This document shows, piece by piece, positions 1,274 through 16,030 of a DNA stretch of 64,000 bases. The translations under genes were made by a program, and so were the position numbers. This DNA is from Deuterostichococcus epilithicus (Eukaryota > Chlorophyta > Trebouxiophyceae > Prasiolales > Stichococcaceae), in the NCBI GenBank assembly GCA_033439295.1, contig JAVTLE010000007.1:1798001-1862000 (forward strand). Direction: 5' to 3'. Position 1 is the first letter of the stretch; every line of letters begins with the position of its first letter. Below the pieces are notes generated by a model. The model saw only the letters and a list, made by a program, of their open reading frames with translations. It was not told the DNA's origin and ran no database searches.

Positions 1274-4200
1274 ATGAAAACTACCGAAGTTCCACCACCT
1301 GTGCAGGAGCTCCGAAACATGGCTCATGCCGCCAGCTTGTCGGAGCTCATGGCGGAAGCTGCACGGCTTCGGGATGAAGGCCATTCAATTGTCACATTTT
1401 CACCCAAGGTGACCGCGGTCATCCGAGGACGACTCTCATCTCGGTCGACAATTCTCCGTGGAACCCCCTTCTGGAAGCGGCGCAGTCCCGTGATGCCAGG
1501 AGCCGCGGCAGTCCCAGTCCAGCCTATACAGTCGCCAGTTTCCAGACACATGCGATGCGAGCGAAGTTTGGTGTCTCTACCTCGTTCTCGCTCGTGTCTT
1601 GCTCAGGTTTTCCTGCCGCTGACGCGGCTGTGCCGCAACGAGTGTGGCTACTGCACCTTCGCAACGCCGCCGTCCTCGGGCCGCCGCGCCTACATGACGC
1701 TGCCCGAAATCCTGAGCATCGCGCGCGCAGGCGCCGCACAGGGCTGCACTGAGGCCCTGTTCACCCTGGGTGAGAGTCTTGCAGCAAGCCCGCAATGCTG
1801 GGATCCAAAACCGAGCCCAGTGTCTCATTGTCAGGTGTGCAGGTCTTCCTCAAAGGCGTGCTGGCTTGGCTGAGTGTGCACAAAGACAGCGTCGCTGCTG
1901 CAGCCTGATCATGGGACCACTCAGTAGTCGACTCAAGGCGGGCAAGGGAGCTGGCGGTCCCCAGTGGCAACGCCTGACGCCCAGGGTCTCATGCATCAAT
2001 GCCGCGCATCCTCCACACCAGGCGACAAGCCAGAAGACGTGTACCCCGAAGCAGCGGCGGAGCTTGCAGAGCTGGGGCATGACAGCACGGTGTCGTACGT
2101 GGCGGCCGCGGCGGCCGAGGTGCTGCGGGAGACGGGGCTGCTGCCCCACGTCAACGCCGGCATCCTGGACCAGGACCAGCTGACCAGCCTGCGGCGCTGG
2201 TCCGCCAGCCAGGCAGGGGCTCCACTTCTTGGACGGTCACAAGCTGAATGCGGGGCGCCTGCGCTGTGCAGCGTCGCCAGCATCGCTGGGCGAGCTGCAG
2301 CCGAGCGGACGCGCCTGAAAGCAGCGCTTGTTTGTTAGAGAAGCGTCCGCTGGTCGACCCTCTGGTCAGCGTCGCGCCATGGGCTTCTCTGAGCACGCGG
2401 GAACCACCTGCTGGAACCCAGCAGTCGACGTGCGCATGGCTGACGACCTGGCAACCCCGCTGCAGGGCCTGATGCTGGAGAGCACCTCTGAGCGGCTGCT
2501 GCAGCCGGGCATGGCGCACCACAACTGCCCCGACAAGGTGCAGTATCTTTCAACTCAAGTGTGCACCTGAAGCGCATGCTTGCCATATGAAGGATTACAG
2601 CGGTCAATGCGCTCACAGCCTGCTGTCCCACGGGCTTGACAGTGGCCCCATCAAGAAGAGCTGCGCGCCCCAAATTGCGCCACTGCATCGCCTAAAAAGC
2701 TTTGGACTGCACCTGTCCGTAGGTGCCCGCAGCGCGGCTCGCGACCATCGAGGCGGCCGGCAGGGCGCGCGTGCCCTTCACCTCCGGCATCCTCATCGGC
2801 ATCGGCGAGACGCGGGAGGAGCGACTGGACTCCTTGTTCGCCATCCGCGACCTCCACGCCCGCTATGGCCACATACAGGTGTGAGGGATGTGAAAGAAAT
2901 TGGCCTGTGCATGGCCTCGGTCCAGGCCCAGTCTGGTGGCACCTGCTTGAGAGGCGCTGCTGCCAGCTGGTCTGCCCTGTGGCTCGCGCAGTGTCGCTGA
3001 AGGCGTCGCTTAGCGCGGTGCAAGCAGGCCCTCGAGCGCATCCTCGCACGCGTGCCAGCCCGCTGTGCATCTGATGCTGCGCGCATGCTGCGGTGGGATC
3101 CCGTCATCGAGGCGCAAGCGTCTCCAGACCGCCCAGCGGCCATGCAGCAAGGATGAAGCAGCTGGGAACACCTTCACCTCCTCGTTGTGCTGTGAAGGAG
3201 GCATCCAGTCAGCTCTTCAGCCGCCCTCATCCTGACCATGCTCTTCACGGCGCAGGAGGTGATCATCCAGAACTTTCGTGCCAAGAAGGGCACCGCAATG
3301 GCAGCCTCCCCGGAGCCCCCGCTGGAAGACCTGCTGTGGACCGTCGCCATGGCGCGCATCATCCTGGGTCCCCACGCCAATGTGCAGGCGAGCAGCATTC
3401 CGGCTTGCGTGAATATTATGTCGTTGGGCGGAAGACAGCTTGCAGCCAAGACGCCACTGAGCAGAACCTTCGCAGGGGTACTGCTGAGTGTGCAGCGTCG
3501 CCTTGCTGCGCAGATTTGATGGCCTGCCGCATTGTCGAGCCCCTTGCTGTGGCAGCTTGCAGTGTATCAACGTGTGGAGCAGAGTGACTTGGCTGAAGAC
3601 CCGAGCGGCTCAGGGCTCCGACCCTCCCGGATGCTGACGCCGCGCAGGCTCCGCCGAACCTAACGCCCATCGAGCAGGGTGCCGAGGCGTGCGGCGGCCT
3701 CGAGGCCAGCTGGGCTGCGCTGCTGGCGGCCGGCATCAACGACTGGGGCGGCCTGAGCCCGCTGACGCGCGACTTCGTCAACCCGGAGAAGCCGTGGCCG
3801 CACATCGCGGGCCTCGCCGCCGTCACTGCCCGTGCCGGCTACGCCCTCCTGCCGAGGTTTGTGCAGCTTGTGCAGCTTGGAGTGCCTACGGAGATATCTG
3901 CACTCGGAGATCAATGTGGTGTCGCAGGTGCAGCTACCTGCGGGCTACCAACCTCTGGCTCGGCATGGTGCTGACAGTAGTCCCGATACATGAGGGCATT
4001 GCAATCTGATACACACAGACGAGCATATTCCGCCAGCCGTCACTGCACGAGTCGAACGACCCTGGGAAGCTGCAGCGCGCGAGCGCATCGTGACCATACT
4101 GCTGAACCCTGTCTTGACCATCGCCCTACTACTCTACTACACTACTGACGCTTGCGCAGGCGTCTCCATTCTTCCATCGCTGCCGCCGCAGGCTGACGGT

Positions 4201-7200
4201 GTACCCAGAGTACATGGCGGACGCGACCGCCTGGCTGAGCGACGCCGGCGCCCACGGCAGCATGCTCGCGGCCGCACTGCGGGCGGCGGACACCTCAGGC
4301 CTCGCGCGCGGCAGCCCCTGGTGCCCCGGCTCCTCCGTCGGCGAGCGCTACTTCGGCAGTGCCCTGGAGACTGACGGCACCGCCTCGGCTGCGGGCGGCG
4401 CCGAAGGGGACCATCCCGCCGCGGCTGCGGGTGCCGCTGCAGGAGGCGGCGACGCCGCGCCTTTCTGCGCGGCCGGTCCCACGTCTCCCGGGGCGGGCGG
4501 CGGCCGGCGCGGCATTGGCGGAGCCAATCTCCCTGGCTTTGCTGTTCTGGGCGGTGCCAACGCCGCGCCAGCCACCGCAGGCAGCTCAGACGCCAGCAGC
4601 TGCGTGACCGGCGTTAAATGCGCCGGTGCGGCAGAGGTGCAGCCAGGCGAAGCCAGCACGCCAGCGGCGGGCGCAGCCGTCCCGCAGGTCACTGACGTGG
4701 CCGCCGGGGAGGTGGAGCAAGCAACGGCCGGCGGCTCGCCGCTGGACGCCGGCAAGGCTCTGGCGGCGCAGGCAGACGACTGCCGAGGCGACGGCTCGGA
4801 TGCAGACGGGCCTCAACCGCCAGCGGCAGCAGCACCAAGCAACAGCAGCTCAGAAGCCAGCACGAACGTCAGCGGCGCCGTCGGCGGCCAAAAGTTTGCT
4901 GGCATCGCCGCGCTGGGGGACGCCGGCAGCAGCCCCGGTGCTGGCGCCCCTGCCGCCCTTGCAGGCACCTCAGACGCCAGCAGCGGCGCCATTGGCAGCA
5001 GCCGTGTCGGCACGGCAGAGGTGCAGCCAGGCGAAGCCAGCATGCCAGCGGCAGGCATGGCCGTCCCGCAGGTCACTGACGTGGCCGCCGGGGAGGTGGA
5101 ACAAGCAACGGCCGGCGGCTCGCCGCTGGAAGCCGGCAAGGCTCTGGCGGCGCAGGCAGACGACCGCCGAGGCGACGGCTCGGATGCAGACGGGCCTCAA
5201 CCGCCAGCGGCAGCAGCACCAAGCAACAGCAGCTCAGAAGCTAGTACGAACGTCAGCGACGCCGTCGGCGGCCAAAAGTTTGCTGGCATCGCCGCGCTGG
5301 GGGACGCCGGCAGCAGCCCCGGTGCTGGCGCCCCTGCCGCCCTTGCAGGCACCTCAGACGCCAGCAGCGGGGCCATTGGCAGCAGCCGTGTCGGCACGGC
5401 AGAGGTGCAGCCAGGCGAAACCAGCATGCCAGCGGCAGGCATGGCCGTCCCGCAGGTCACTGACGTGGCCGCCGGGGAGGTGGAACAAGCAACGGCCGGC
5501 GGCTCGCCGCTGGACGCTGGCAAGGCTCTTGCGGCGCAGGCAGGCGACCGCCGAGGCAACGGCTCGGACGCAGACGGGCCTCAACCGCCAGCGGCAGCAG
5601 CGCCAAGCAACAGCAGCTCAGAAGCCAGCACGAACGTCAGCGGCGCCGTCGGCGGCCAAAAGTTTGCCGGCATTGCTGCGCTGGGGGATGCTAGCAGCAG
5701 CCCCGGTGCCGACAACGCGCTTGTTGCAGGAGGCAGCTCAGACGGCAGCAGCGGCGCCATCGGTGGGAGCCGTGCTGGTGCAGCAGAGGTGCAGCCAGGT
5801 GAATCCAGCACGCCAGCGACGGGCGCAGCCATCCCGCAGGTCACTGATGTGGCCGCCGGGGAGGTGGAGCAGGCGACGGCTGGCGGCTCGCCGCTGGACG
5901 CCGGCAAGGCTCTGGCTGCGCAGGCAGGCGACCGTCGGGGCGATGGCTCGGATGCAGACGGGCCTCAGCCGCCAGCGGCAGCACCGCCAAGCAACAGCAG
6001 CTCAGAAGCCAGCACGAACGTCAGCGGCGCCGTCGGCGGCCAAAAGTTTGCCGGCATTGCTGCGCTGGGGGATGCTAGCAGCAGCCCCGGTGCCGACAAC
6101 GCGCTTGTTGCAGGAGGCAGCTCAGACGGCAGCAGCGGCGCCATCGGTGGGAGCCGTGCTGGTGCAGCAGAGGTGCAGCCAGGCGAAACCAGCACGCCAG
6201 CGACGGGCGCAGCCATCCCGCAGGTCACTGATGTGGCCGCCGGGGAGGTGGAGCAGGCGACGGCTGGCGGCTCGCCGCTGGACGCCGGCAAGGCTCTGGC
6301 TGCGCAGGCAGGCGACCGTCGGGGCGATGGCTCGGATGCAGACGGGCCTCAGCCGCCAGCGGCAGCACCGCCAAGCAACAGCAGCTCAGAAGCCAGCACG
6401 AACGTCAGCGGCGCCGTCGGCGGCCAAAAGTTTGCCGGCATTGCTGCGCTGGGGGATGCTAGCAGCAGCCCCGGTGCCGACAACGCGCTTGTTGCAGGAG
6501 GCAGCTCAGACGGCAGCAGCGGCGCCATCGGTGGGAGCCGTGCTGGTGCAGCAGAGGTGCAGCCAGGCGAAACCAGCACGCCAGCGACGGGCGCAGCCAT
6601 CCCGCAGGTCACTGATGTGGCCGCCGGGGAGGTGGAGCAGGCGACGGCTGGCGGCTCGCCGCTGGACGCCGGCAAGGCTCTGGCTGCGCAGGCAGGCGAC
6701 CGTCGGGGCGATGGCTCGGATGCAGACGGGCCTCAGCCGCCAGCGGCAGCACCGCCAAGCAACAGCAGCTCAGAAGCCAGCACGAACGTCAGCGGCGCCA
6801 TCGGCGGCCAAAAGTTTGCCGGCATTGCTGCGCTGGGCGATGCTGGCGATGGCCCCGGTGCCAACAACGCGCTTGCTGCAGGAGGCAGCTCAGACGCCAG
6901 CAGCGGCGCCATTGGCGGCAGCCGTGCTGGTGCGCCGGAGGCGCCGCAGGGGGACGACGCCCTCCCGGCTGCCGGCAGGGCCATTCCGCAGGTCACTGAC
7001 GTGGCCGCTGGGGATGTGGAGTCGGCAACGGCAGGCGGCTCGCCGCTGGACGCCGGCAAGGCCCTGGCGGGCAGCGCCGCAGCTGAGCGCGGGGAGCCCA
7101 GCGGTGGCGGCGCGTGGGGCTCGGCACAAACCTCGGCCGGCGCTGCTGCCCCCGGCGACGCAGCAGGCGGGAATGCAGGAGGCGGGTCGCAGCGTGGCGC

Positions 7201-10200
7201 CGACCCTCCTGCTGACAGTGGGCTGCCGAGGGCGACAGCGGCGGAGCCGTCAGCTTTGGCAGCGGCGGCGGGCAGCAGGAGCCGAGCCGCGACGCCGCAG
7301 CCGCGCCTGGCGCCCCGCCGCGCATGGCAGGTGCAAGCTGGTCGTACGCAGTGGTGTGCATGCAGGAGGGCCTGCCCCCTGTGACCCAAGACCGTGCTCC
7401 GATCCGACGACCCAGATGGTGCAGACACACGAGTTGCTTGTTGCCGATTCGGGGTCGTTGGGTGGACAATCTTGAACCAGCGGACGGTGTGCGCCAATCC
7501 TGAAGTATCGCTTTGCATATGACCACAGCTCGAGGGAGAAGACGGCGAGCGATCTCTGCATGAAGCTGCCAGCCGAACGAACTCTCTTGCGCTTTGACGT
7601 CTGAAAGTTCATCGAGGGATTCACACACTGCACAGGTGGCGGTCGGCGAGGATGGCCTGATGCGCGGCTGCGAGCGGCCGGCGGCGTCGCGCGACGTGGC
7701 GGCGCTGGTGGCGCGCGTCCTCGGCGGCGGCGCGCCGCTGGACGAGGCGGATATCACCCGCCTGTTCCGCACCCGCGGCGCTGACCTGGAGGTGCTGCTG
7801 CTGCCCTCCCTTGACCTCAGCACTAGGGGTCTCGACTTGTGCATGCAGAGTGTCTGTCCCACGCTCGCGGCGCCGACCTGGGAGGCGCCGTTACAAACCA
7901 TCCGCAAACCTCTTTCAGTGATTAGACAGGCGTGGTTACTTCGGTGGTCACTGCCGCGCCCGGGACGCCAAACTGGAGGTGCTGCCACCGGCCCTCCTGA
8001 CCTCAATTTTTCGAACATACAAAGTGTGATCATCTCAATCTTTGCGACCGGCGGCCACACATAAGGCGCTGGTGTGGAGGTGCCGCCACCAAACCTCGTA
8101 CATCGCAAGTGTCGGTTGGTCCTTCTAAGGTGGCTGCTGCGCGACAGCGGCGCCAATCTGGCGACGCCCGCCGATTTCTTTCCTAGCTTTTCATGATATT
8201 TCTCGACAGACACAGGCGGCGCGCAGACTGCGGCTGGCGGTTGCCGCATCCTCCAGATCAGGAGCTTATTTTACAGGCAGGTGGCGGGTCACAAGTCAAC
8301 TTTCGTACGTCGAGGGCAAGTAATGTCGACTGTCTACTTTCGTAAAGTTGAGGGCAGGAATGTGTTTGCCCCCGCGAGTCGGGTCCCAAACCAGAAAGTA
8401 GGTCGTTGGAATGCAGGATATTTTCCGCTGTGTTGCAAGCCTTTCCTGGAACCTGCCACTGTTGGTACTCCTGGCCAAGGCCGGCTGGCCGACACCAGCC
8501 AGCTGGTCCCAATATATGCGGGTCCACTACGACAGGATTCCGTCGTACCCAGTGGTGCGGGGCCAAAGTCGGACCTCGGAGGTTCCGCCAGCTGTAATCG
8601 TATTGGTACTGTCAGACAGGCACTGATCGGCAACTGATCGTACCATCTGTTTTAATACTGAAGACGTACAGGCCCTCGTGGCAGCGAGCGATACGATTCT
8701 CGGTGCCGGAGCTGGTTCTGGCTGGTGTGTGCTGCAGACGCCGCAGGCTGGCCATCTTACCACAACTGGACGCCTGACCTGCCCGCCTGACAGCAGCTGA
8801 TGACGCGAGCCTGCCTCAGGGTTTAGGGGCTGCCCTCTAAATGCTGCAGGGTGCCCCAATCTAATCAGCTTCCCTCCTCCGGCCTGACCCAATCCTCAAT
8901 GACGCTCCGGCGCACCAAGCCTGCGAGCGGTCGCTGTGCACCTGACTACCATTGTGCTGCATCCTGCTAGCAGGTGTTGATGGTAGCTTCTTTGCTCTGC
9001 TGTAGGAGGTGTGCCGCGGAGCGGATGAACTGCGGCGCCGGGTGCACGGCGATGCCGTGTCCTACACCGTCAACCGCAACATCAACTACACCAACATCTG
9101 CACGTGATGCTTCCTCCCCTGATGAGGGCGGCATAACGAGGATGCCCGCCGAGTTTGGATTCCTGCGCACCGCGCTGGTCGACCTGCCTGCTGAAGGCTG
9201 GCCTTTCAACATGGTTGCAGGTACAAGTGCCAATTTTGCGCCTTCAGCAAGGGCAAGGTGATTTCGCTCTGCACCCATCATCCGTGCCTTACTCGCGCTG
9301 CCTGCTGCAGCGAGGCCTGCTGCAGCGAGGCCTGCCCGCCGCAGTGCATACCCAGAACCCCAGTCGGCACAACAGCAGTCCCACCTGGACGTGAGGATGC
9401 ACTGGAATCCGGACCCTGACCGGCGCTCAGCAGGCGAACGAGGAGCTGCGGGGGGCGCCGTACCTGCTGGGGCTGGAGGAGGTGGGTCGGCGGGTCGCCG
9501 AGGCCTGGGAGCGGGGCGCGTCGGAGGTGTGCATGCAGGGCGGCATCCACCCCGACTTCACCGGGGAGACGTACCTCAGGTGGGGAGCAGCCGCCTGGAA
9601 CAGGGGAACCATTGTGGTGCTGTTGTGTGACACCAGGGCGGCCCCTCATCCGAAATCAACATTCGGCGCCCAGTCTGCCGACGCCCCCACAGCTCGGACT
9701 GACTCTGATAGACGAGGCTAGTAGACGAGTCCAGCAGAACGAGTGTGCTTACGGACCAGATCTGCACTGCCACGGCCCGGCTGGTGGCGACTGCACCGTC
9801 GGCAATGCAATGCGGCGCTCGGGACCCTTGTTCTCACACAGTGCCCCGCAAGCCGCAGGCTGCTGCAGACGGCGCGGGAGGCGGCGCCGGGCATCCACGT
9901 GCATGCATTCAGCCCGCTGGAGGTGGCACAAGGCGCTGCTGCGAGCGGTTGGTCCCTTAGCACGTGAGGAATCCCCTCTTTTGTGATGTTTTGCTTCACC
10001 GAGTGGAGCTTCACCCTTCCTGTCGCTTTCACTTGCGCATAGGGCTTACCCTGTCGCCTACCCCTTCCGCCTGCATCCTGCGATGTAACGAATGCACGTT
10101 TTGCATGTCGTGCCTGTAGCCGCGGCGCCCAATGCCAGTCGTGCGTATCCCTGTAGGTACCTGCGCAAGCTCAAGATGGCAGGGCTGGGCAGCCTGCCGG

Positions 10201-12287
10201 GCACAGCGGCGGAGGTGCTGGATGACCGCGTGCGCTCGGTGCTGTGCCCAGACAAGCTGTCAACCTCCGAGTGGCTGGAGGTGCCGCCCTCCGTCCTTCT
10301 GGCTGTTCTGGATGTGCAGCAGGTTGTGCAAGGGCCAGCTGTCAGAAGTTCCTGTGCCTTTGCGGCGCTGGCAAGGTGCATGCCCAAATGTTGGCTACGA
10401 TGTGGCAGGTGTTGTGAGCACGACAGGAAGCCGAAACCCTGTGCTAAGCCTCGCCCATCCAACCCTGCCAAGTCACTGCACAGTCCACTCCGCAGCAGCA
10501 GTCGCATGTCCCTGCAGCCGGGCTTGGGCTCAAGTCATTCGCTGCGGACGACACCGGGTGCCGGTAACATGCTCATCCGCCCGCCCTGCCAGCACAGTGT
10601 TTCAACCCCTTGCCCTAGCCAAGAGTCTGCAACGCCATCATGCAACCTCCATGTCGTCATGCCCATGTACCCCACGTGCAGGTGGTTGGCGCTGCGCACC
10701 GGGCGGGCATCCGGACCTCGTCCACCATTATGTTTGGGCACGTGGACGGCGTCGGCGCCTGGGCGCGCCACCTGCTGGCACTGCGGGCGCTGCAGGCGGC
10801 TACCGGCGGCGTCACCGAGTTCGTGCCGCTGCCCTTCGTGCACATGCAGGCGCCCATATACCTCAAGGGTGCGGCACTCATCTCCTCCTGTTCACCCTCC
10901 TCTTCCTGCCTGTTTCCCTCCCTCTCTCATGCTCTCGCCCGCGAAATTGGCCGTATGCTGTGAAAAGTCCCCCCGTCTGGCGGGAGGCATGCGGTGCGCC
11001 ATGCCAGCGCAGCGGCCTGCCCACCAGCGACGGCAGGCGACTCCGGGTAGCACTGCGAATTCACTGTCCTGGCACCCAAAAGATGCCTCTGGTACACTGC
11101 AGCGCGGCGCTGCCTGGTACCCCACATGTGGACATGCTGTGTTTTGTGCTTTGCTCAAATGGCCTCGTTTCCATGTCGCGGGAAACCCCTCTGGGTCGAA
11201 AGCCTAGACCAGCCAGCAGCCAGGCGTTGGGAAGACAGAAAGGCCTGCTGTACATCACATGCTGCCAGGTTGCAGCGGCCCTACTGCTAATTGAGGGCTG
11301 AGTAGCATTGTACTCCGGCAGTACCTACACCTACTCCTCAACACCAGAGATGGTATTGTCGTACTCCGGGAACTACAAGGGCTTAGCCATTCGCGACCAG
11401 GAAGCTATAGACTGTAGAACAGAGGAAGGCCTGCTGGACGAAGAAACAGCTGCTGTTGCCGGCGCAGGTCTCTGGTTTCCTGACGGCTTGCAGCCACCAG
11501 ATGCGCTGCAGAGGCCTTTGCCGCAGCTGCAATCTGCGAGAAGTTGTGCACCAGACGACCTTTTTAGAGCGGCGGTTCAGCTGCACAGCCGCCATCAGCT
11601 GGAGGACACCTAGCGACACAGACATCCAAGTTGGTTTCGAGCCTCTCATCTGACTGCGGAGCCTTGTCACTTGGTGCAGGGCGGGCGCGCCGCGGCCCGA
11701 CGCTGGCGGAGTGCGTGCTGATGCACGCGGTGGGGCGGCTGGCGCTGCATCCGGTGCTGACCAACGTGCAGGCCAGCTGGGTGAAGATGGGGCCGGAGCA
11801 GGCGGCGCGTCTGCTGGCCGTCGGCTGCAACGACATGGGTGGCAGCATCATGAACGAGTCCATCACCCGCGCCGCAGGCAAGGCGCTGCCAGGTTCAACA
11901 GCCGCTTGAGGCAGCCCTGGATGGCTGGCCTGCCCTGGGGGTGTTGTGTGTCGTGGAGGCCTTCGCGATGGGAATTTCAGCTAATACCGCATCCCAAGCA
12001 GAGCTGCGAAGGTCCACTCCAGCAGACGCAGTAAAGTGCTCAAGCCTCCATGCGAGCATCTGGCTTCAGCTGGAACGGTCACATTCATGTCTCTATGACC
12101 AGAACTCGTGCGCGCCCCTGCAGGTGCGGAGCACGGCCAGGAGCTGCCGCCGGAGCGCATGGAGGAGCTCATCAGAGAGGCGGGGCGCGACCCCTGGCAG
12201 CGCACCACGCTGTACGCGCCGGCGGACCTGCGGCAGACGATGCGCTCCTTCGGCGCCGCGCCCCTCGCGCAGCTTGCGGCGCGCTGA
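1274..12287 (+). CDS. FO synthase, fused CofG-CofH radical SAM enzyme with a giant repeat linker
   Basis: This is 7,8-didemethyl-8-hydroxy-5-deazariboflavin (FO) synthase. The CofH half couples tyrosine to 5-amino-6-ribitylaminouracil and the CofG half closes the ring; in green algae FO is known as a photolyase/cryptochrome antenna. Seventeen exons join in frame: 1274-1408, 1607-1769, 2022-2212, 2466-2537, 2723-2878, 3256-3387, 3648-3856, 4192-7330, 7636-7791, 9006-9103, 9221-9257, 9431-9579, 9859-9963, 10157-10280, 10682-10868, 11680-11877, 12124-12287 (5415 bp, 1804 residues). CofG has a CX3CX2C cluster at Cys54/58/61, then GILIGIGET and the stretch AGINDWGG. CofH has a CX3CX2C at Cys1483/1487/1490 inside [10 protein letters not shown], then [14 protein letters not shown] and [10 protein letters not shown]. 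Residues about 462-1314 are tandem repeats between the halves. Three introns (2213, 3388, 11878) start with GC. The first in-frame ATG is taken as start; another lies at 1319. Family assignment is secure; the N-terminus and linker function are inference. Confidence 0.95.
4518..7075 (+). repeat. Coding tandem repeat, 384-bp unit, about 6.6 copies
   Basis: A 384-bp (128-codon) unit recurs about 6.6 times inside exon 8 of the FO synthase. The segment beginning QPPAAA occurs at about 4812, 5196, 5580, 5964, 6348 and 6732, and the segment with [12 protein letters not shown] occurs seven times. The units at 5964-6347 and 6348-6731 encode the same 128 residues and look identical or nearly so in DNA, which suggests recent unequal exchange. 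The first and last copies are more diverged. Because the period is a multiple of three, several other frames are also open over kilobases. The translated unit is rich in Ala, Gly, Ser, Pro and acidic residues with no predicted fold that I recognise, so it is probably a disordered linker. Confidence 0.97.
8299..8362 (+). repeat. Short imperfect direct repeat in the long FO synthase intron
   Basis: Two 27-base imperfect copies (8299-8325 and 8336-8362, both containing CTTTCGTA and GAGGGCA) lie 37 bases apart inside the 1214-bp intron 7792-9005. That intron is the longest in the gene and shows no recognisable gene or mobile element. Confidence 0.6.
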
Positions 12288-14424: not shown

Positions 14425-16030
14425 ATGGCATTCCCGAGGGCCCTCGCGCTGCTGGCCGTGGCCACCATCCTGAGCTGCTCGGCTGGCGTGGACGCGACAA
14501 CCTTCAGCACTAGCAGGCTGCGGTTCCGCCGCCCTGACTTCCTGCCGCTGCTGCCGCTGGCACTCAAGCTGCCTGGCGACTGCGGCTCGGTGTACCAAGT
14601 GCTGCCGGGCGATACTTGCCAAAGCATCGCGTGAGTGATATCGATCATCTGCCGTTTGCTGGCAGCCCTGGTCGGTGCTTATCACAGATAATATCATGTT
14701 GCTGCGTTGTCGATCTCCTTGCTGTAAAAGCCGTTATGCTGCCGCATTGTTTGGCTGCTGATCGGCCGTCCTTGTTATGCCGCAGGAACTATGCCGGCAT
14801 CAGCGTGAAGCAATTTCAAAAGCTGAACCCTCTCACGCTCTGCGGCATCCTGCCGCTGGTGCCGGGCTGGCCCGTCTGCTCAGGCGACAAGCTCGCCTTT
14901 TGCAGCAACCGATTTGTCACCTCCGGTGGCGACTCGTGCAACTCGATCGCGAACACAGTGGGCGACATCCTGGCGCTGCAGCCCGGCGCCAGCTGCTCCA
15001 GCCTCGACAGCGATGTTGATGTCTGCATCGCGCCAGCAGCAAACGCGGTGAGCAACTGGCTGCGGCTCGCTGCATTGCCATCTGCTCCTTCGGACATGCT
15101 CCTGATCCTGATTCAACCTACTGGCTGTACCACTGTTGAAGGTTTGAAATCGTCAAACGCAGGGAATGTCGCTCACCGCCGAGCACTCACCTCACACGTG
15201 TTATGCTGCCGCAGTGCGCCAAGGACACCCTCTGCGGGGTCTCTATCTCCCCGGCAATGCAGGACCTGTTTGCCACTGCACCAGACTACTGCACAGTGGT
15301 CAGCGCGTGCGAGGTGAGCGCTTGCAGCCGCATGCCGCAAGCAGCACTGATTCATCAAAACATTCCTTAGGCGTGCTTTGCATTCCTGTGGCATGCTGTG
15401 CATTCCTGTAGCTTCAGAGGCGTATATTGTACTGTGGCCCTTTGCCATCCGCCAGACACCTGCCTGTAGGCGCATCAGCGAGCCTGGATGGTCTGTTCAC
15501 TCCACACCATGCTGCTGATGCAGGCTCCGCTGACAGCCGGCATCAACAGCTTGGGGCTGGAATCGCTGACAGTGACCCTGACAGACGCAACGCCTAGTGT
15601 ACAGAACGTGGTGGGCAACGATGGGCACCCAGAGCTGCAGGCGTTTGTCGATGCCCTGGCGGTTAACCCAGCGCAGCTGGCGGTCACATTCACGCCTGGA
15701 GCTCTTTCAGATGGCTCCAATGTCATCTCATTCATCGGCTCAGGTCCGCATCCACTCCGGCGGATGGATGTTACTGCTTTCTGTGAAAACAGAGGTAGCA
15801 AGCATGTTTGTACAGGCTGCCCCAGTCGGTCTGCTCTGCACAGCTGGTTGTGCATGTCATCAAACCAGAGCGCATGCACGCTGCTGACTGCAAGCTTGCA
15901 CACACGGACCTAACGCCCCTGGTGTCTTCCTGTCACAGTTGCCGCTTCATCCCGCCGCAAGCTGCTCCAAACGAGCTACCCGCCCACTGGCTCCACGGGG
16001 ACACCTCGCAAGTGGTACTGGGGCCGATGA
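14425..16030 (+). CDS. Secreted protein with two LysM domains (copy 1)
   Basis: Five exons join in frame: 14425-14630, 14786-15047, 15215-15313, 15524-15743, 15939-16030 (879 bp, 292 residues). The N-terminus is a signal peptide (MAFPRALALLAVATIL followed by a small-residue region). Two LysM modules follow: the first carries GDTCQSIA, split by intron 1, and continues to LNPLTLCGILP; the second carries GDSCNSIAN. LysM modules bind N-acetylglucosamine-containing glycans such as chitin and peptidoglycan. A further domain, present also in the second copy, contains a GHPEL motif and DGS, and the protein ends in a basic tail (SRRKLLQTSYPPTG). I do not recognise that C-terminal domain. The protein is probably secreted or cell-wall associated. 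A TGTAA motif 238 bases after the stop could be the polyadenylation signal. LysM identity is firm; function is inferred. Confidence 0.9.

Follow-up and report, generated by a model that had tools for sequence, protein, structure and literature searches.

The window analyzed here is a stretch of 64,000 nucleotides (nt) from the genome of the green alga Deuterostichococcus epilithicus (bases 1798001-1862000 of contig JAVTLE010000007.1, forward strand). It contains one complete gene for a fused CofG-CofH protein, the FO synthase, in which the two radical S-adenosylmethionine (SAM) halves are separated by a long tandem repeat array that is probably translated in the CofG frame. The gene consists of 17 exons and 16 introns (Table 1), which we assigned using homology and reading phase. 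The phases are consistent across all 17 exons, and the model yields a single open product, a predicted protein of 1803 residues (plus the stop) and about 176 kDa. The start codon at 1274 is provisional, and a further exon may lie upstream.

The CofG half scored 443.8 bits against TIGR03550 (cut-off 213.35); for the CofH half, TIGR03551 gave 477.3 bits (cut-off 374.1). Scanned singly against NF006687, the halves gave 513.9 and 536.6 bits; the 1018-bit cut-off of this model applies to the whole protein, and the sum of the two scores is not equivalent to it. The translated halves contain CRNECGYC (CofG) and CTYKCQFC (CofH, spanning exons 10-11), both of the form CX3CX2C, which we take to be the cluster motif of the FO synthase halves. 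The algal enzyme retains 211 of the 217 positions that are invariant among 32 bacterial FbiC proteins picked from 68 complete fused open reading frames (ORFs); one of the six missed positions is due to the point at which the protein was cut. To judge from its sequence, the FO synthase is apparently intact and bifunctional. In the genome searched (46.8 Mb, 21 contigs), all six matches to the CofG model and all eight to the CofH model fall inside this gene, which we therefore treat as single-copy.

Exon 8 is 3139 nt long, against a median of 156 nt for the 17 exons. Its complete codons begin at 4193, and it is flanked by cgccgcag/ on the 5' side and GCAG/gtgcaagc on the 3' side (slashes mark splice junctions). 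The CofG frame of the exon is free of stops, the remaining two forward frames containing 3 and 16. Conserved CofG sequence extends 46 residues into the exon, to residue 399. The array was delineated with Tandem Repeats Finder (TRF), which reports a period of 384 bp with 93% matches and 0% indels. Counted in codon register, the unit starts fall at 4580, 4964, 5348, 5732, 6116, 6500, and 6884, the last being about half a unit, and the array corresponds to 832 residues (483-1314). Stops number 0, 1, and 13 in the forward frames of the array and 13, 6, and 18 in the reverse frames, the stop-free frame being that of CofG. In the whole window, this is the single array of its kind, the 13 other TRF rows all having periods of 22 or less. 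The initial annotation had described a fused FO synthase with a repeat between its halves, an exon 8 of these limits running in frame through about 6.6 copies of a 128-residue unit, and a splice to the CofH start; all of this is borne out, the last as a predicted phase-0 junction. Its view that the exon starts with CofG residues is likewise correct, but RLTVYPEYM is not the end of CofG. The linker of 850 residues that it proposed is close to the length of the array itself; the distance from the last conserved CofG block to the first conserved CofH block is 1020 residues.

Table 1. Features of the FO synthase gene and its repeat array, in window coordinates
Feature	Position	Strand	Basis or remark
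FO synthase gene	1274..12287	+	Homology and phase; halves match TIGR03550, TIGR03551
Exons 1-6	1274-1408, 1607-1769, 2022-2212, 2466-2537, 2723-2878, 3256-3387	+	
Exons 7-12	3648-3856, 4192-7330, 7636-7791, 9006-9103, 9221-9257, 9434-9579	+	
Exons 13-17	9859-9963, 10157-10280, 10682-10868, 11680-11877, 12124-12287	+	
CofG half, residues 1-402 (exons 1-7 and first 148 nt of exon 8)	1274..4339	+	
Exon 8 (CofG tail, 83 non-conserved residues, array, 85 further residues)	4192..7330	+	Open in CofG frame, phase-0 end
Tandem array, 6.5 copies of a 384-bp (128-codon) unit	4579..7074	+	TRF and unit comparison
Region covered by the 611-bp perfect direct repeat (5805-6415 = 6189-6799)	5805..6799	+	
Intron 8, 305 nt, phase 0, between repeat exon and CofH	7331..7635	+	
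Candidate alternative intron, unit-1 donor GAG/GTGCAG to CofH acceptor; would excise nearly the whole array	4637..7635	+	Donor score 7.3
CofH half, residues 1400-1803 (exons 9-17)	7636..12287	+	

Three of the 16 introns have GC donors (intron 3, CAG/GCAGGG at 2213; intron 6, CAG/GCGAGC at 3388; intron 16, CAG/GCAAGG at 11878) and would be overlooked by gene finders that accept only GT. The longest intron is intron 9 (7792-9005, 1214 nt), which interrupts CofH shortly before its conserved core.

The linker segment at residues 397-1399 is rich in Ala (25%), Gly (18%), and Ser (12%), has an isoelectric point (pI) of 4.06, and is nearly devoid of aromatic residues, a composition that suggests disorder. 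The repeat unit was not detected outside the array in the genome, either as DNA (seven matches, every one in the array) or as protein (nothing below an E-value of 0.23; three matches, E 0.23-1.65). Relatives of the repeat were absent from phage records at E 1e-5 and from viral contigs, and a sequence search of the PDB gave a best match with an E-value of 0.69. An iron-containing alcohol dehydrogenase (Fe-ADH, PF00465) was considered as the source of the repeat and rejected: the whole ORF scored 26 bits against a Pfam cut-off of 31.3 with no stretch passing alone, single units were unmatched, and the conserved core alone gave an E-value of 0.098. Additional degenerate units next to the array were also rejected (shuffle P 0.124 upstream and 0.518 downstream).

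The differences between the copies of the repeat are of the type expected of coding DNA. Comparison of the six full units yielded 82 changes from the consensus, spread over 80 columns. Read in the CofG frame, 41 of these are synonymous, against 26.6 expected from base-matched draws (none of 2000 reached 41) and 30.2 from trinucleotide-matched draws (P 0.0028, 5000 draws), and 43 are at third positions against 31.7 expected (P 0.002); these P values are optimistic because the copies in the array are not independent. Neither excess was found in the two other forward frames. The ratio of nonsynonymous to synonymous rates (dN/dS) was 0.19-0.32 for the nine pairings of a unit from 1-3 with one from 4-6, where dS was 0.24-0.41, and 0.31-0.63 within units 1-3. 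Codon preference, trained on the other FO synthase exons, was highest in the CofG frame of the array (0.198, against 0.036 and -0.134 in the other frames), and in 11 longer introns 32 of the 33 frame values were negative. Thus, the array evolves in the manner of coding DNA, and the substitution pattern favors its retention in the mRNA.

Besides the non-independence of the copies, several observations weigh against translation of the array. Within the youngest units 4-6, dN/dS is not low (0.36, 0.97, and 1.28, on few changes). The segments flanking the array show no preference for the CofG frame, with values of 0.057 in this frame against 0.416 and 0.12 for the 80 codons preceding the array and 0.028 against 0.392 and 0.361 for the 85 codons following it. 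Furthermore, in a matrix built on the 15 other FO synthase introns, the modeled donor at 7330 scored 7.0 and the CofH acceptor 5.7, and a phase-0 GAG/GTGCAG after 4636, in unit 1, scored 7.3, matching the modeled donor. This site would join the CofH acceptor in frame. The same donor-like sequence recurs in phase in units 2-6 (5020, 5404, 5788, 6172, and 6556), and each of units 1-6 also contains an acceptor-like CCGCAG that keeps the frame by position count and, with a draft matrix, outscores the modeled CofH acceptor. The array could thus be an intronic repeat that is mostly or always spliced out, leaving a working linker of at most about 170 residues, or its units could be skipped in frame in varying numbers. 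The splice signals alone do not settle retention because donor- and acceptor-like sites recur in units 1-6. Nevertheless, an intron would not be expected to keep one of six frames fully open across 2496 bases with no indels, to confine the synonymous and third-position excess to the CofG frame, or to show the low dN/dS of the older unit pairs. On balance, we consider removal of the array by splicing unlikely, although it is the alternative that survives best. Were it correct, the locus would show how an intronic repeat can mimic coding sequence.

With translation of the array as the preferred reading, the question becomes whether the repeat is functional. Variation among units 1-6 is lowest at residues 34-63 of the unit (2 of 30 residues, against 30 of 98 elsewhere). 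This core has 8 synonymous changes and 2 nonsynonymous ones, the rest of the unit 33 and 39; between the divergent last half-unit and unit 6, the core differs by 7 synonymous and 3 other codon changes and the preceding 33 residues by 7 and 11. The array might be a selected, adjustable module, the core conferring multivalency or placement in the cell and the copy number varying by strain or isoform. This is conceivable because units 1-6 hold the in-phase donor- and acceptor-like sites and because gain or loss of whole units keeps the frame, but we consider it rather improbable. Slightly less probable still is the simpler proposal that the repeat is a functional module whose core, present in each unit, binds something or renders the enzyme multivalent. 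The core contrast has a Fisher P of 0.088 for a region picked post hoc, uniform columns can also arise through recent homogenization, and the unit lacks a credible family, given the weak Fe-ADH resemblance and the poor best match in the PDB. We see no sign so far that the linker has a job of its own.

EPYC1 is, like PYCO1, an algal repeat protein that phase-separates with Rubisco, and proteins of the EPYC1/PYCO1 type have basic repeats with Rubisco-binding motifs. The FO synthase linker resembles PYCO1 (PMC10288592) in its low-complexity repeats with one more-conserved stretch per unit, and differs from it in linking two enzyme domains and in being acidic. The pI of residues 397-1399 thus counts against a basic repeat of the EPYC1/PYCO1 type. 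A survey of green algae (PMC3887541) reports that about 9% of the annotated mRNAs of Chlamydomonas reinhardtii and Volvox carteri carry coding tandem repeats, the commonest repeats in coding sequences having 3- and 6-base motifs. The FO synthase array is similar to these repeats in lying in frame within an exon; it is distinguished by the 384-bp unit and the location between two catalytic domains.

The units differ in apparent age. Units 4-6 are 97-99.5% identical to each other, and units 1-3 diverge by 7-16% among themselves and from units 4-6. Unit 3 is mosaic, resembling unit 2 in its first part and units 4-5 in its last. A stretch of 611 bp recurs at a shift of 384 with zero mismatches, which indicates recent duplication or homogenization. 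The earlier statement that two neighboring units encode identical residues holds in the register of this perfect repeat; when the array is divided by codon register, two of the 384 bases distinguish unit 4 from unit 5, and one of these two changes alters an amino acid. The accompanying proposal that the array is expanding or being homogenized while staying in frame agrees with the perfect repeat and with the coding-type differences between copies. Near-identity combined with mosaicism typically points to unequal exchange or gene conversion among tandem copies. Both the enzyme and the mutational process are known; the repeat-expanded linker makes this a variant of that enzyme. No such linker in an FO synthase came up in the titles and abstract openings searched, which were mostly from the open literature, and a prior report may exist.

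Near-perfect repeats of several hundred base pairs are of the kind that assemblers misplace, and the exact copy number hinges on the assembly. Given the 611-bp perfect repeat and the two differences between units 4 and 5, the array could be genuine, but with a copy number, or a near-identity among units 4-6, that is an artefact of assembly. Because units 1-3 diverge by 7-16% and the array contains no N, the genome does contain an array of some length, and we assign such an artefact a low probability, marginally below that of a functional module.

To place the linker among known fused enzymes, we examined 83 bacterial loci, namely, the best 80 of at least 571 relatives from a scan of prokaryote genomes and three plasmid loci. 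In 78 of the 83, CofG is followed by CofH in a single fused frame. The distance between LTVYPEY and VNRNIN in these 78 loci is 109-164 residues (median 116), a range that describes the bacterial loci examined and not FbiC at large; in the algal gene it is 1119 residues. For bacteria, to which the comparison is confined, this agrees with the short linker that the initial annotation attributed to known fused enzymes. Five loci were left unmeasured: L057 and L102, where the best CofG hit follows CofH; L064 and L065, with no CofG hit and with CofH close to the contig end; and L071, where the halves are out of frame. The algal expansion sits in a stretch that is variable in length in bacterial FbiC, from the W.PG block of CofG to the start of the conserved part of CofH. 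Like the FbiC/CofGH family (NF006687, PRK09234), the algal protein has CofG before CofH, and it matches profile positions 42-398 and 475-843 of 849; the 17 exons, the repeat array, and the 1119-residue span set it apart from the bacterial members.

The five longest bacterial spans (135-164 residues; L077, L036, L038, L054, and L056) come from records titled Acidobacteria, Acidobacteriota, or Holophagales, and L077 carries a Gly/Ala-rich insert at the position of the algal expansion. In a search seeded with proteobacterial sequences, none of the titles of the best 80 CofH relatives (L025-L104) names a cyanobacterium; most belong to proteobacteria, Chloroflexi/Dehalococcoidia, or acidobacteria. 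The plastid ancestor may not be the source of the fused gene in the alga. Two loci with an FbiC-type gene (L046 and L051) belong to metagenome-assembled genome records titled Klebsiella pneumoniae, titles that look wrong or like placeholders. In viral contigs, 87 pattern matches to CofH included no relative.

FO synthases of this type are on record in other eukaryotes. The legend of Fig. 11 in PMC8498797 states the occurrence of FbiC in eukaryotes, and PMC10949242 handles CrFbiC of C. reinhardtii as an FbiC-type FO synthase. Like CrFbiC, the D. epilithicus gene encodes a eukaryotic FbiC-type FO synthase. PMC10949242 also relates that none of the FO synthases tried in yeast, CrFbiC included, yielded FO.

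The two FbiC domains appear to function independently, with the CofH product diffusing to CofG, according to PMC8498797, which cites Philmus et al. 2015; the same review notes that archaea and some bacteria make CofG and CofH as separate proteins. The suggestion that the linker tethers or spaces the two active sites is therefore unsupported, and if the intermediate reaches CofG by diffusion, a long slack linker should do little harm. We consider it reasonably probable that this gene encodes an intact FO synthase with a tolerated, disordered linker. Unequal exchange or gene conversion would have expanded the 384-bp in-frame repeat within the naturally length-variable CofG-CofH link, so that the two radical-SAM domains would now be joined through some 1,000 residues of acidic, Ala/Gly/Ser-rich chain that acts as a slack leash, neither a channel nor a ruler. 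In a simple chain model, lengthening the link from 25 to 1003 residues lowers the effective concentration that one half experiences of the other by an estimated factor of about 250 (from 26 mM to 0.1 mM). If the array is translated, the gene would be a natural experiment in linker length on a two-step radical-SAM enzyme; a working enzyme of this design would fit free diffusion of the intermediate and counter channeling. It would also be a clear example of tandem-repeat growth in the coding sequence of a conserved single-copy enzyme. Production of CofG, with the repeats as a tail, and CofH as two proteins, through separate transcripts or cleavage of the linker, would accord with the separate enzymes of archaea and some bacteria and with the stop at 7384 that the CofG frame meets if intron 8 is retained, but is highly improbable given the phase-0 splice sites of ordinary strength that join the halves and the CofG-CofH order shared with the 78 fused relatives.

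The product of the enzyme would serve as the antenna pigment of cryptochromes or photolyases. Seven places in the genome match the photolyase family, with 13 matches in all, and the solved structure nearest to the best exon is 5zm0, an animal-like cryptochrome, presumably the one from Chlamydomonas. Chlamydomonas aCRY is described with an FO pigment in PMC9178010. CofD had no match in the genome at an E-value of 1; CofC and CofE were not sought. Because a cryptochrome relative is present and a CofD match is absent, FO is probably an antenna pigment in this alga rather than a precursor of F420.

Elsewhere in the window, nine long ORFs had no Pfam match at an E-value of 0.001. The next gene downstream of the FO synthase (14426-15050) looks by eye like one for a secreted LysM-type protein, with a signal-peptide-like start and motifs such as VYQVLPGDTCQSIA. 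In the genome, the chlorophyll a/b-binding family is represented by 39 exon matches, as fits a photosynthetic eukaryote and probably a green alga; one of 14 control genomes, that of a cyanobacterium, also matched.

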